Below are positions 34,222-39,342 of a DNA stretch of 64,000 bases, one piece after another. The notes beneath the pieces are model-generated. The model worked only from the letters and a program-made list of their open reading frames with translations, was not told the DNA's origin and ran no database searches. How positions within the stretch are numbered: the first letter of the stretch is position 1; every line of letters begins with the position of its first letter. The DNA comes from Dyadobacter luticola (GTDB lineage: Bacteria > Bacteroidota > Bacteroidia > Cytophagales > Spirosomataceae). Both the position numbers and the translations under genes were made by a program. Location: positions 434,001-498,000 of the forward strand of contig NZ_VCEJ01000008.1 of NCBI RefSeq assembly GCF_005860805.1. Reading direction: 5' to 3'.

Positions 34222-34295
34222 TCCTGAATAGCTCAGCCGGTTAGAGCATCTGACTGTTAATCAGAGGGTCGTTGGTTCGAGCCCAACTTCGGGAG
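34222..34295 (+). tRNA. tRNA-Asn (anticodon GTT)
   Basis: All four arms pair: acceptor TCCTGAA with TTCGGGA, D arm GCTC/GAGC, anticodon stem TCTGA/TCAGA around the loop CTGTTAA, and T arm GTTGG/CCAAC with loop TTCGAGC. The anticodon GTT reads Asn codons. The discriminator base is G, and the terminal CCA is not encoded. It follows the 93-residue small protein gene by about 85 bases. Confidence 0.97.
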
Positions 34296-34320
34296 CCTTC
34301 AAACGCGGTCCGCCGCTTCG

Positions 34321-35031: not shown

Positions 35032-35060
35032 CAAAGTTAGCCGCAATTCATTTCCTGCAA
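35032..35060 (-). promoter_or_regulatory. Promoter of the crp/fnr gene
   Basis: On the minus strand there is a TTG (35058-35060), an 18-base spacer and a perfect -7 TAACTTTG (35032-35039). The -33 box is one base from the dyad at 35062-35075, the arrangement of a class II activator site. Confidence 0.68.
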
Positions 35061-35061
35061 T

Positions 35062-35075
35062 GTGACAATTATCAC
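35062..35075. promoter_or_regulatory. Crp/Fnr-like operator between crp and tauE
   Basis: GTGACAATTATCAC is a 14-base dyad with one mismatched pair and is close to the classic TGTGA-N6-TCAC form. Its centre is 29.5 bases from the near edge of the -7 element of both the leftward (35039) and the rightward (35098) promoter. One dimer could thus activate both genes. A separate 10-bp palindrome ACTGGCCAGT lies at 35078-35087. Confidence 0.65.
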
Positions 35076-35097
35076 TGACTGGCCAGTTTCAGGTTTC

Positions 35098-35105
35098 GAA
35101 TTTTG
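35098..35105 (+). promoter_or_regulatory. -7 element of the tauE promoter (activator-dependent type)
   Basis: GAATTTTG matches TAnnTTTG except for the first base. At the -33 place there is GAC, not TTG. The weak core fits dependence on the Crp/Fnr site 29.5 bases upstream. The leader would be about 18 bases. Confidence 0.5.
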
Positions 35106-35126
35106 TGCCTGATAAAACACATTCAC

Positions 35127-35936
35127 ATGGAAACATTTGCTTACCTGGCCTCTATCTTCATCGGCATTTCGCTGGGGCTTATTGGCGGCGGCGGTTCGAT
35201 CCTGACGGTTCCGGTGCTGGTATATCTGTTTGGGATAAGCCCGCTGGTCTCCACATCTTACTCCCTCTTCATCGTCGGCTCAACCAGTCTGATGGGCGCA
35301 TTCACCTATTATCGTAATGGACAGATCAACCTAAGAACAGCGGCGTTATTCGGAACGATTTCCATCACGACGGTTTACCTGACGAGAAAATTTCTGATGC
35401 CGATTGTGCCGGATAACCTTTTTCAGATCGGCACATTTACCATGACGGAGGCATTGCTGACCATGATCCTTTTTGCGCTATTAATGGTGGCGGCGTCCAT
35501 GGGCATGATCAGGGAAACCGAGAAAAAGCCGGGTTGCCTGAACTGCAATTTAAAGAGCAATGTGATCCGGCTGGTGCTGAGCAGCATCGGGATCGGGCTA
35601 ACGACCGGACTGCTTGGGGCGGGAGGCGGTTTTCTGTTGATCCCGACATTGGTCCTGATTATGGGAATGCCCATGCGCGAAGCAGTCGGAACTTCCCTGC
35701 TCATCATCGCGCTTAATTCGCTTATCGGTTTCCTGGGCGACCTCGGGCATTTCGAGATGGATTGGCCATTTCTTTTCAAAGTAACAACTATTGCCCTGAG
35801 TGGGATCATCGTCGGCACCTGGCTTAGCAAACGTTTGGCATCGAGTCAGTTGAAGAAAGGATTTGGGTGGTTTGTGCTGGTTATGGGTTTATTTATTATT
35901 ACAAAAGAGCTGGTCTGGCCATTGCTGGCGGGCTAA
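35127..35936 (+). CDS. TauE/SafE family anion (sulfite) exporter
   Basis: A membrane protein of 269 residues with about eight helices in two similar halves. Each half opens with a glycine-rich motif: GISLGLIGGGGSILTVPVLV near residue 12 and GLTTGLLGAGGGFLLIPTLV near 155. Family members export sulfite or other sulfur-containing anions. The loop in the middle has CLNCNLKS, a Cys pair that may be redox-active. The ATG at 35127 follows the predicted transcript start closely; a start eight codons earlier would place it at the -7 element. Divergent from the Crp/Fnr gene and upstream of the MBL-rhodanese gene. Confidence 0.88.
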   Translation: METFAYLASIFIGISLGLIGGGGSILTVPVLVYLFGISPLVSTSYSLFIVGSTSLMGAFTYYRNGQINLRTAALFGTISITTVYLTRKFLMPIVPDNLFQIGTFTMTEALLTMILFALLMVAASMGMIRETEKKPGCLNCNLKSNVIRLVLSSIGIGLTTGLLGAGGGFLLIPTLVLIMGMPMREAVGTSLLIIALNSLIGFLGDLGHFEMDWPFLFKVTTIALSGIIVGTWLSKRLASSQLKKGFGWFVLVMGLFIITKELVWPLLAG

Positions 35937-35965
35937 AATGCTTTTAAACAAAAAATTTCAGGCAG

Positions 35966-35979
35966 GTAACAAATGTCAC
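35966..35979. promoter_or_regulatory. Second Crp/Fnr-like operator, before the MBL-rhodanese gene
   Basis: GTAACAAATGTCAC resembles the dyad at 35062-35075: over a 19-base window that includes flanking bases, 15 positions agree, and both are followed by TGAC. Its centre is 29.5 bases from the -7 element at 36002, the same distance as in the tauE promoter. Confidence 0.6.
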
Positions 35980-36001
35980 TGACCCGGGAAGCCGGACTTC
36001 T

Positions 36002-36009
36002 GAAATTTG
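36002..36009 (+). promoter_or_regulatory. -7 element of the MBL-rhodanese promoter
   Basis: GAAATTTG differs from TAnnTTTG at the first base, exactly as in the tauE promoter. GAC again replaces the -33 TTG. The spacing to the upstream dyad is also the same. Confidence 0.5.
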
Positions 36010-36037: not shown

Positions 36038-37459
36038 ATGAAAATCGAACAGATCTATACCGGGTGTCTTGCACAGGGCGCTTATTATATTGAAAGCAAT
36101 GGCGAAGCGGTGGTGATTGACCCGCTCAGAGAAGTGGAGCCTTACATCAGTCGCGCGGAAAAAAGCGGGGCGAACATTAAATATGTGCTGGAAACGCATT
36201 TTCATGCGGATTTTGTCTCCGGTCATCTGGATCTGGCAGAGAAAACAGGCGCACAAATTGTATTTGGACCAACGGCCCGGCCAGAATTTGAAGCGCATAT
36301 CGCAACCGATGGTGAGTTGCTGCAAGTTGGTGATGTCACCATTAAGGTCCTGCATACGCCCGGCCACACGATGGAAAGCACTTGCTATCTGCTACGTGAT
36401 GCAACGGGTAAAGACATGGCCATTTTCACCGGAGACACCTTGTTTATCGGAGATGTAGGCCGCCCGGACCTGGCGCAAAAAACAGCAGCTGATCTCACGC
36501 AGGAAAAGCTCGCCAGTCATTTATTTAAGTCATTAAGAACAAAAATCAGGCCGCTGGCGGACGACATTGTGGTATATCCCGCGCACGGAGCCGGCAGTGC
36601 CTGCGGTAAAAATATGAGCAAGGAAACGATCGACACATTAGGCAATCAAAAGCGCACAAACTACGCGCTGCGCCTGGATATGACGGAAGATGAATTTGTA
36701 AAAGAAGTTACCAAAGGACTCGCGCCTCCCCCGGCCTATTTCCCCGAAAATGTGATGATGAACATGCAGGGATACGATCGCATTGACACGGTTATGCAGC
36801 GCGGAAATCGCGCACTCGATCCGGATGCGTTCGAAGCGGCCGCCAATGAAACCGACGCCATCCTGCTCGACACGCGTGAAGCGTCGGTTTTTGCAGAAGG
36901 CTTTATTCCAAATGCAATCAACATTGGCATTGACGGAAGCTTTGCGCCGTGGGTAGGCGCAATGATGCCCGACATCAAACAAAATATCCTTATTATTTCG
37001 GACGCAGGACGGGAAGAAGAAGTCATCACCCGGCTCGCCCGCGTCGGCTATGATCATACGATCGGTTATCTGAATGGCGGTTTTGAAGCCTGGCAAAGGG
37101 CAGGCAAAGAAATAGATCAGATCGAATCTGTTACCGCGAGCGAAATGGCGCAGCGACTACATGACGATCCCACATTGACCGTGCTGGATGTAAGAAAACC
37201 GGGCGAACATTTCTCAGAGCATTTCATCGGATCGGAGAACATTCCGCTGGAAGATTTGAATGAACATTTTTCTCAAATCAATAAAAACAAGATCTATCTC
37301 GTGCATTGCGCTTCCGGTTACCGGTCCATGATTTTCAACTCCATTTTGAAATCAAGAGGATATGATCGTGTGGTGAATGTAACCGGCGGATTCAAGGCGA
37401 TCAAGGAATCGGGTCTTTTTCAGATCAGCCATTATGTTTGTCCAAGCACTATTTTGTAA
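36038..37459 (+). CDS. MBL-fold hydrolase fused to two rhodanese domains (persulfide dioxygenase type)
   Basis: The N-terminal metallo-beta-lactamase domain (about 1-225) has LETHFHADFVSGHLDLAEK (metal ligands), HTPGHTMES, FTGDTLFIGDVGRPDL and VYPAHGAGS, the pattern of persulfide dioxygenases. Two rhodanese domains follow. The first (about 255-360) has DTREASVFAEGFIPNAINI but at the active loop reads ISDAGREEE, without the cysteine. The second (about 365-465) has LDVRKPGEHF and the active loop VHCASGYRS. Relatives oxidise glutathione or other persulfides to sulfite and pass sulfur between domains. The TauE exporter upstream and the YeeE transporters downstream fit a sulfide-handling set. A probable Crp/Fnr-activated promoter precedes it. 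Confidence 0.9.
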   Translation: MKIEQIYTGCLAQGAYYIESNGEAVVIDPLREVEPYISRAEKSGANIKYVLETHFHADFVSGHLDLAEKTGAQIVFGPTARPEFEAHIATDGELLQVGDVTIKVLHTPGHTMESTCYLLRDATGKDMAIFTGDTLFIGDVGRPDLAQKTAADLTQEKLASHLFKSLRTKIRPLADDIVVYPAHGAGSACGKNMSKETIDTLGNQKRTNYALRLDMTEDEFVKEVTKGLAPPPAYFPENVMMNMQGYDRIDTVMQRGNRALDPDAFEAAANETDAILLDTREASVFAEGFIPNAINIGIDGSFAPWVGAMMPDIKQNILIISDAGREEEVITRLARVGYDHTIGYLNGGFEAWQRAGKEIDQIESVTASEMAQRLHDDPTLTVLDVRKPGEHFSEHFIGSENIPLEDLNEHFSQINKNKIYLVHCASGYRSMIFNSILKSRGYDRVVNVTGGFKAIKESGLFQISHYVCPSTIL

Positions 37460-37542: not shown

Positions 37543-38106
37543 ATGCTGGAATTAATCAAACAGCCGTGGCCCTGGTACATTGCGGGTCCCCTGATCGGGC
37601 TCACCTTGCCGGCCCTGCTGATATTAGGAAATAAATCGTTCGGGATTTCGTCATCGCTGCGTCATGTGTGCGCCGCTTGTTTTCCCGCCAAGATTCCCTT
37701 TTTTGAATACAATTGGAAAAAAGAAACTTGGAATCTGTTGTTCGTACTGGGCATTTTCTTCGGAGGGGTGATTGCCGCCAACTTCCTGGCAAACCCAAAT
37801 CCAGTCCAGGTTACAGCAAACCTGACAAAAGAGCTGGCCCGCTACGGCATCACCGACTTTTCGTCCCTGGTGCCCGTCGATATTGTGAGCTGGAAAAGCT
37901 TGTTGACCCTTCCGGGGTTGATCATGCTGGTCGGCGGCGGATTTCTGGTGGGTTTCGGGACGCGTTATGCGGGTGGCTGCACGAGCGGTCACGCTATTAT
38001 GGGACTGTCCACATTGCAATGGCCATCGCTGGTCGCCACGATCTGCTTTATGATCGGAGGGTTTGTGATGGCCAACTGGATTTTGCCCGCGATTTTGAAT
38101 TTATAG
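37543..38106 (+). CDS. YeeE/YedE family sulfur transporter, first subunit-like protein
   Basis: A membrane protein of about 187 residues with four or five helices. The YeeE signature GFGTRYAGGCTSGHAIMGLS includes the conserved cysteine that takes part in thiosulfate or sulfur transfer in the structure-solved relative. Near the N-terminus is VCAACFPAKIPFF. The ATG at 37543 is chosen because it begins just before the first helix; an earlier start (37438) would overlap the MBL gene. With the next gene it makes a two-part YeeE/PmpAB-like importer. The probable cargo is thiosulfate or another reduced sulfur species. Confidence 0.88.
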   Translation: MLELIKQPWPWYIAGPLIGLTLPALLILGNKSFGISSSLRHVCAACFPAKIPFFEYNWKKETWNLLFVLGIFFGGVIAANFLANPNPVQVTANLTKELARYGITDFSSLVPVDIVSWKSLLTLPGLIMLVGGGFLVGFGTRYAGGCTSGHAIMGLSTLQWPSLVATICFMIGGFVMANWILPAILNL

Positions 38107-38124: not shown

Positions 38125-38625
38125 ATGCAGCACATTGCAAAAGAAACGAGCGAACACGCCATCCGCGCCACGGACGCCATTTGTATCAATGAGAGTGAAG
38201 AAAATACGCCCTGGTACGGCAACATTAAATATCTGATCGTCGGCATTCTTTTTGGGATTGTCTTCGTCAAATCAGAAGTTATCAGCTGGTTTAGGATACA
38301 GGAAATGTTCCGGCTGGAATCGTTTCACATGTATGGGGTGATCGGGAGCGCCGTCGCTGTTGGTATGCTGTCTGTGTGGCTGATCAAAAAGTTCAACATT
38401 AAAACTGTGCACGGCGAGCAGATCACTTTCACCAAAAAGCAGTTTAACAAAGGGCAGATTTATGGCGGGTTGTTATTCGGGTTAGGCTGGGCACTGACGG
38501 GCGCTTGTCCGGGGCCCTTGTTTGCACAGATCGGATTTGGCGCAACCGTTGTGATTGTGCCGCTGCTCAGCGCAATTGCCGGCACGTGGGTTTACGGTTA
38601 TTTCCGGGATCGGCTGCCGCACTAA
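38125..38625 (+). CDS. YeeE/YedE family sulfur transporter, second subunit-like protein (DUF6691 type)
   Basis: A 166-residue membrane protein that starts 18 bases after its partner. Four helices are visible (ILFGIVFVKSEVISWF, GVIGSAVAVGMLSVWL, GLLFGLGWALTGACPGPLFA and VIVPLLSAIAGTWVYG). The ALTGACPGPLFAQIG segment holds the conserved cysteine of this half. A soluble, charged stretch opens the protein. Its place next to the first YeeE protein and the persulfide enzyme supports a joint role in moving sulfur compounds across the inner membrane. Confidence 0.87.
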   Translation: MQHIAKETSEHAIRATDAICINESEENTPWYGNIKYLIVGILFGIVFVKSEVISWFRIQEMFRLESFHMYGVIGSAVAVGMLSVWLIKKFNIKTVHGEQITFTKKQFNKGQIYGGLLFGLGWALTGACPGPLFAQIGFGATVVIVPLLSAIAGTWVYGYFRDRLPH

Positions 38626-38655: not shown

Positions 38656-39342
38656 TTAATTAAGCAAAGCTTTCAGCGCAGCTTCGTCCTGAAAGCCAAG
38701 CTTCCTGTCGGTCAGTTTACCATTGCGGAAGATCAGGATTGTGGGTAGTTCTTCAATCTGGTAAGCCTTCATGAGCGGTTTTTCGGTATCGGCATTCAGT
38801 TTTACAATCGTCGCTTTTCCCGCGATTTGCTGAGAAACCTGATCAATGATCGGCGCCATTTTTTTGCAGGGGGCACACCAACTTGCATACACATCCACCA
38901 TTACCAGTTTTTGGGACCTGATCAGGCTGTCGAAACGGGCAGCATTCCACTCGGGCTTTGCGGTCGACTTTTTCACACCAGCCACAGGCATCATGCGGGC
39001 AGACCATTTCAGGTAACCGCCTTTCATCTCATGGACATCATTAAAACCCATTTTATGCAGTTTTTCGGCAGCCATTTTGCTGCGTCCGCCCGATAAGCAA
39101 TACACAAAAACGGGCTTATCCTTGTCCAGTTTAGCTAGCGACTGATCAAACGACGCACTTTGAGCATCAATATTCACCGCGTCCGGCAAGTGGCCGTCGG
39201 CAAATTCACCCGGTGTCCTCACGTCGATCAGCTGCGGTTGACGGGCTTCTTTAAGTTGCAAAGCAAACGTATCCGGGGCTACACTTTGCGCCAGCAGGAC
39301 CTGGCTAAAAAGCAAAAATGAAAAGAGCAATTTATACTTCAT
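38656..39342 (-). CDS. Secreted rhodanese-thioredoxin fusion
   Basis: The signal peptide KYKLLFSFLLFSQVLLAQ sends the protein to the periplasm. The rhodanese domain (about 25-115) has LIDVRTPGEFADGHLPDAVNI and active site FVYCLSGGRSKMAA with its cysteine. The thioredoxin domain (about 130-228) has the active site ASWCAPCKKMAP. In combination it could take sulfane sulfur on the first cysteine and reduce it on the second. It lies on the opposite strand to the transporters and converges with them. Its upstream region has no clear copy of the Crp/Fnr dyad. Confidence 0.9.
   Translation of the reverse strand: MKYKLLFSFLLFSQVLLAQSVAPDTFALQLKEARQPQLIDVRTPGEFADGHLPDAVNIDAQSASFDQSLAKLDKDKPVFVYCLSGGRSKMAAEKLHKMGFNDVHEMKGGYLKWSARMMPVAGVKKSTAKPEWNAARFDSLIRSQKLVMVDVYASWCAPCKKMAPIIDQVSQQIAGKATIVKLNADTEKPLMKAYQIEELPTILIFRNGKLTDRKLGFQDEAALKALLN

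Follow-up and report, generated by a model that had tools for sequence, protein, structure and literature searches.

The Dyadobacter luticola genes crp and tauE diverge from an intergenic region in which a single dyad lies equally far from the -7 box of either promoter, and a related dyad lies just as far from the -7 box of a gene for a metallo-beta-lactamase (MBL)-rhodanese protein. This arrangement raises the question of whether the geometry reflects regulation and, if so, which protein reads the dyads, whether it activates or represses, and what signal it senses. The original prediction held that the Crp/Fnr-family protein encoded beside the shared dyad activates the sulfur island and itself. 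We analyzed the window, by which we mean the whole stretch of 64,000 nucleotides at positions 434001–498000 of contig C6 in the 6.4 Mb genome, together with the remainder of this genome and relatives across Bacteroidota.

Table 1. Features of the sulfur island in the window (coordinates are window positions).
Feature	Position	Strand	Remarks
crp, Crp/Fnr-family regulator, 211 aa	34375-35010	-	cNMP_binding and HTH_Crp_2
TauE/SafE-family membrane protein, putative sulfite exporter	35127-35936	+	
Metallo-beta-lactamase-fold protein with two rhodanese stretches	36038-37459	+	putatively persulfide-dioxygenase-like
YeeE/TsuA-like sulfur transporter, first half	37543-38106	+	
YeeE/TsuA-like sulfur transporter, second half	38125-38625	+	
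Shared dyad GTGACAATTATCAC	35062-35075		between crp and tauE; centre 35068.5
Dyad GTAACAAATGTCAC	35966-35979		5' of the MBL-rhodanese gene; centre 35972.5
crp -7 box TAACTTTG	35032-35039	-	putative transcript start ~35027
tauE -7 box GAATTTTG	35098-35105	+	putative transcript start ~35110
MBL-rhodanese -7 box GAAATTTG	36002-36009	+	putative transcript start ~36014

The island consists of crp, the shared dyad, tauE, the second dyad, the MBL-rhodanese gene and the two YeeE/TsuA halves, in this order (Table 1); transcription from the MBL promoter probably continues into the first of these halves. Every base position that the original prediction gave for the dyads and boxes was reproduced, and the coordinates bear out its central point that the dyad centre lies 29.5 bases from the near edge of the -7 box at the crp, tauE and MBL promoters alike, which corresponds to a gap of 22 nt between dyad and box. 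At the -33 register the tauE and MBL promoters carry GAC in place of TTG, as had been noted, while TTG is present at the crp promoter. A flavobacterial transcript-start map places the TAnnTTTG -7 box at -12 to -5 (PMC9723704), and starts assigned from that placement would fall 17, 17 and 24 nt 5' of the crp, tauE and MBL start codons, respectively. The crp end of the island is abutted by a tRNA-Asn gene (34222–34297, plus strand) that may mark an integration point. A rhodanese-thioredoxin gene on the minus strand (38656–39342) converges with yeeE, and no dyad match with up to three mismatches is found near its start.

Three promoters in a single window, one of them with a dyad carrying three mismatches, might share a spacing by coincidence, and the dyad alone is indeed near chance there: the window holds 8 matches with up to three mismatches against 4.75 expected, and 17 of 100 shuffles reach 8. 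The wider comparison leaves this explanation virtually no probability. In a whole-genome search of 79 genomes, including that of D. luticola itself, the dyad followed by 22 nt and NANNTTTG gave 109 matches and its reversed control 2. When any gap from 7 to 37 nt was allowed, we obtained 132 matches versus 31 reversed, and 88 of the 132 fell at 22 nt, 10 at 23 nt and at most 4 at any other length; this gap spectrum and the reversed-pattern controls rule out chance. The D. luticola genome itself contains four strict dyad-plus-box matches and no reversed control, as well as a crp-facing match under the GTGAT variant. Three of the four strict matches lie in sulfur islands; the match at C5:719241 resembles coding sequence, as judged by eye.

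The same peak appears in loci retrieved through the Crp protein. Among the best 80 of 581 confirmed relatives, from Dyadobacter, Chitinophaga, Pedobacter, Mucilaginibacter, Flavobacterium and other genera, the gap is 22 nt in 98 cases, 23 nt in 7, and any other length in at most 2; a gap-22 site is present at 65 of these 80 named loci and absent from 15. We counted distinct regions of up to 260 bp upstream of the island genes, dropping duplicates and matches that start after query residue 9. The full dyad occurs in 31 of 33 tauE regions and in 35 of 37 MBL regions; 29 and 32 of these, respectively, also have the -7 box at the 22-nt distance. A class-wide scan of 198 genomes recovered sites of the same spacing in two forms, GTGAC (36 rows against 0 reversed controls) and GTAAC (57 rows against 6). 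By gap spectra and reversed controls, the dyad and its spacing are thus kept across Bacteroidota, which was the test that the original prediction had set.

Two side observations concern other sites of this kind. The 10 of 132 matches at 23 nt, several with boxes ending in ACCTTTG (G062:C8:15257, G028:C11:96121, G039:C14:121578 and G026:C37:25311 are examples), form a minor second spacing class that perhaps belongs to another Crp regulon. The palindrome GTGAYN4RTCAC occurs 33 times in the D. luticola genome versus 10 times reversed, more often than the sulfur sites can account for, and several occurrences are GTGATCNNGATCAC-like.

The spacing also bears on the class of these promoters. A centre-to-edge distance of 29.5 nt and a box beginning at -12 (PMC9723704) place the dyad centre at -41.5, where CAP is centred at class II promoters (PMC7192510), so that the predicted class II position near -41 is supported. 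We surveyed the core elements of 98 sites, which reduce to 96 distinct ones and 69 clusters. At the -33 register, with an 18-nt spacer, TTG is absent from the eight commonest triplets in these clusters; the -7 box opens with G in 30 of them, with T in 19, with C in 16 and with A in 4. The crp box fits TAnnTTTG; the tauE and MBL boxes differ from it at the first base, as do those of 50 of the 69 clusters. The defects that the original prediction had seen in the two outward promoters, a -7 box starting with G and no -33 TTG, are therefore widespread, as would be expected where an activator stands in for a contact at -33. Its description of the crp promoter as intact stands for the box and the TTG in register; the four nearest relatives lack the TTG and read ATAG, ATTT, ATTT and AGTC after the dyad, and we attach no meaning to it.

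The overlap of the dyad with the -33 region would also suit a repressor that keeps RNA polymerase off the promoter until sulfur species release it. Several regulators of the ArsR and MarR families are known to respond to sulfane sulfur in this manner, and the sensors in the literature that we searched are often repressors, for example those described in PMC11211675 and PMC10451225. We consider this reading of Crp highly improbable, since a repressor site needs no invariant 22-nt phase, and since sulfur promoters that lack the -33 element and often deviate from TAnnTTTG at -7 would probably be poor without an activator. From these features we infer activation rather than repression.

Which protein reads the dyads can be approached through its distribution. 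Of the 33 genus genomes that encode this Crp, 31 have a site, as does 1 of the 15 that lack it (Fisher p 3.5e-9; G038, which has only a distant Crp at E 1e-32, was entered among the latter), an association confounded by joint gain of the island. The sole Crp-negative genome with matches, G037, has two of them, one coding-like and one beside a different Crp-type gene. As a paralogue control we took a core MBL homologue, 65–70% identical, from 15 Crp-negative and 5 Crp-positive genus genomes; none of the 20 upstream regions contains the dyad, the best agreeing at 8 of 10 consensus positions. This Crp is absent from 15 of 48 genus genomes. One Dyadobacter relative has truncated or frame-broken extra crp copies (L014 1202–1417; G009:C14:64632–65224). 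In G037, a box stands 22 nt from GTGATGTATATCAC, which lies behind the different Crp-type gene (L279 789–1391), and the 22-nt geometry may thus serve other Crp proteins of the genus.

A link between regulator and dyad that reaches beyond shared presence comes from the recognition helix. It reads TSREVVSR in the window Crp, with S-R-E-V where many distant relatives have R-V-V. We assembled 238 loci picked by protein similarity, excluding against bias any that had been fetched by DNA pattern, and left the third half-site base free; 10 loci lacked a scored Crp, and the set comprised 206 distinct Crps. A gap-22 site lies within 1.5 kb of 94 of the 140 E-type and 29 of the 66 V-type Crps; the 83 Crps without such a site in that range were not entered. 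The third half-site base varies together with residue 186, which is E or V: the nearest sites are GG in 57, AG in 34 and AA in 3 cases for the E type, and GG in 0, AA in 13, AT in 10, AC in 4 and AG in 2 for the V type (GG/AA versus E/V, Fisher p 6e-12, uncorrected for relatedness). The discordant rows, E-type Crps without G in their sites (L058, L307, L361) and V-type Crps with G (L192, L284), leave 118 of 123 rows concordant. In a quick tree, for which the helix positions were masked and which is subject to long-branch warnings, each trait changed at least seven times, and E rows with GTGAC sites (L342, L347, L350; SH-aLRT 97) are nested in a V/GTAAC group (SH-aLRT 95). A sign test on the 4 well-supported independent E/V pairs of the quick tree was non-significant (median p 0.5). 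The matching residue in CRP is E181, changes of which alter specificity at the very base that varies here.

The dyads of the window might instead be read mainly by another GTGA-reading Crp paralogue. The genome encodes two further members of the Crp family, 73% and 68% identical to that of the window; all three have E186 helices, and cross-binding among them is likely. Yet this genome has only four HTH_Crp_2 proteins above the cut-off, three of which are the family members, each of them standing beside dyads, and the sites track the presence of the Crp family, so that we judge a principal role for a paralogue rather improbable. The second island, at C1:530382, repeats the divergent arrangement, dyads preceding both tauE and MBL, and its MBL box reads GAAATTTA; in the third (C3:1802274), a dyad separates crp from tauE, with no strict box at 22 nt. 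This third island (L040) looks nearly identical to that of G005 (L278), which suggests recent transfer.

Taken with the position of the dyads, these comparisons make it very probable, as far as sequence can tell, that the dyads are operators of the neighbouring Crp, which would act from -41.5 as a class II activator of a sulfur regulon. The proposal that the Crp/Fnr protein regulates the island has gained from the presence association and from the covariation of helix and half-site. Self-activation is its weaker part: the dyad is found upstream of crp, within 260 bp, in 25 of 42 distinct regions, but a strict box at 22 nt in just 5, all of them in the window's own 88–100% clade. Other islands have either a degenerate box facing crp or a dyad situated behind that gene. 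As a separate observation, dyads in distant relatives overlap or abut the 3' end of crp and face the genes behind it (L140 3241–3254, L147 3267–3280, L271 2127–2140, L276 3309–3344).

To survey the regulon, we chose 20 stretches among the matches of the 79-genome search, preferring sites outside plain crp-tauE-MBL islands, with 31 distinct gap-22 sites; downstream families were assigned with Pfam/NCBIfam for the genes scanned and by sequence resemblance for the remainder. At 24 of the 31 sites, the first downstream gene is a recognized sulfur or thiol gene: MBL-rhodanese (6), TauE type (5), YgaP-like membrane protein (4), rhodanese (3), thioredoxin (2), peroxiredoxin (2), SoxA/TsdA-type cytochrome c (1) and YeeE (1, at 446 bp from its site). 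One YgaP-like gene is followed by an SQR type III-like gene, whose match is below the curated cut-off. In this survey, 7 sites lack such a gene directly downstream: either there is no gene at all for 450 bp, or they face two DUF6132 proteins, a heavy-metal-associated protein with a rhodanese after it, an OprD-like porin, a methyltransferase-like membrane protein or a 60-aa frame. A cytochrome bd gene (L149) was rejected as a regulon member, its site pointing away from it. Sites that seemed to face no gene under a 90-aa minimum (L138, L139, L149 and L132 9682) face shorter ORFs that are YgaP-like or DUF6132.

The remaining question is the signal. The protein falls within the Crp/Fnr superfamily, with PF00027, PF13545 and PF00325 above their cut-offs and a predicted fold that matches Crp/Fnr structures. 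CRP contacts cAMP through E72, R82 and S83 of its phosphate-binding cassette. These contacts are not kept here, where E72 aligns with Ala and R82 with Gln/Glu, and the NCBIfam CRP equivalog scores 31.1 bits against a cut-off of 266; a cAMP-responsive CRP is thus not indicated. The FNR oxygen sensor holds its Fe-S cluster with an N-terminal cysteine cluster plus a fourth cysteine. The window Crp has just two cysteines, Cys80 and Cys86, and scores 31.7 bits in NCBIfam Fnr against a cut-off of 228. By sequence alignment, the two cysteines occupy the stretch that binds cAMP in CRP. Both are invariant in an alignment of 63 sequences with a mean column identity of 65%, made of the window protein and 62 of the 80 named loci (18 were omitted, one for an internal stop). 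In the larger set, Cys86 is present in 172 of 206 distinct Crps, and Cys80, the conserved cysteine that a thiol-based sulfane-sulfur sensor would need, in 206 of 206. Because 34 Crps lack Cys86, the case for a Cys80–Cys86 disulfide as a sensing step common to all of them is weakened. Structure prediction with AlphaFold says little about the sensor, its confidence being low over residues 81–90 (mean pLDDT 54). Conserved cysteines in the cAMP stretch and a sulfur regulon together suggest that this Crp is a thiol sensor of sulfane sulfur, with Cys80 as the likely key residue.

A serious rival, if an unlikely one, is that the architecture is as described and the signal is heme or the general redox state, as has been proposed for PgRsp of Porphyromonas gingivalis. 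The best sequence (E 1.1e-28) and fold match of the window Crp in the PDB is 3DV8, a Crp/Fnr protein of Eubacterium rectale with cysteines aligned to Cys80 and Cys86; it is 25% identical to the window Crp in the fold alignment, and we came across no account of what it regulates or senses. PgRsp, a Bacteroidota Crp/Fnr protein like that of the window, was modelled on 3DV8 and has Cys76 in the stretch studied there (PMC6955866). According to that report it binds heme, its own promoter fragment and the hmu and bcp promoters, and affects oxidative-stress genes; section 3.1 describes neither a dyad nor a spacing. By eye, the spacing of its Cys76 and Met78 is similar to that of C-A-M in distant Crps, and two peroxiredoxin genes lie downstream of our sites. 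Against a heme or redox signal, a member of the sulfur query set is nearby for 113 of the 140 Crps of the E type and for 43 of the 66 of the V type, and single changes of Cys76, Met78 or His85 in PgRsp left the heme spectra unaltered (PMC6955866).

With sulfane sulfur as the favoured signal, we propose the following mechanism. Cys80 would be the sensing residue, together with Cys86 in those Crps that have it, within the part of the protein that corresponds to the cAMP-binding stretch of CRP. A Crp dimer would bind the dyad at -41.5 as a class II activator, replace the missing -33 contact and bring RNA polymerase, carrying its housekeeping sigma factor, to the weak -7 boxes of tauE and the MBL-rhodanese-yeeE unit and, from the shared dyad, to the promoter of crp itself. 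The regulon would handle sulfide and sulfane sulfur, through export by TauE, persulfide dioxygenase and rhodanese activity of the MBL protein and transport by YeeE, and in relatives it may add SQR-like enzymes, peroxiredoxins and thioredoxins.

This system resembles E. coli CRP/CAP in its Crp fold, GTGA half-sites, R-E---R helix and a -41.5 dyad over the -33/-35 region. It differs in using a Bacteroidota -7 box (TAnnTTTG-like, often GAnnTTTG), in a regulator that lacks the cAMP contacts and has two cysteines in their place, and in a regulon that would handle sulfur. Regulators of the ArsR type (SoxR/sHdrR), MarR types and YrkD also control sulfur-oxidation genes by sulfane sulfur; they belong to other protein families and are described as repressors, whereas the window would represent a Crp-type class II activator. 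Class II activation by Crp/Fnr proteins is known. What appears new is a cysteine-bearing Crp lineage without cAMP contacts that would govern a sulfur regulon across Bacteroidota, and the apparent natural switching of specificity within it. We tentatively put forward, as a real but far from assured possibility, a phylum-wide reading in which this lineage turned the cAMP pocket into a cysteine sensor of sulfane sulfur that drives regulons from a fixed -41.5 position, with repeated E/V swaps re-tuning protein and operators between GTGAC and GTAAC; the swaps would then be the natural counterpart of the E181 specificity change in CRP.

For sulfide and persulfide handling in Bacteroidota, the open-access literature that we searched yielded no Crp regulator of this gene set, or any other regulator, and the present Crp is proposed for that role. 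The sites define, by sequence, a large collection of putative class II promoters that bear the unusual Bacteroidota -33 and -7 elements, in which the activator site, the spacing and the altered core elements are directly testable. The covariation of residue 186 with the operators, in turn, offers a natural experiment on the evolution of DNA-binding specificity.
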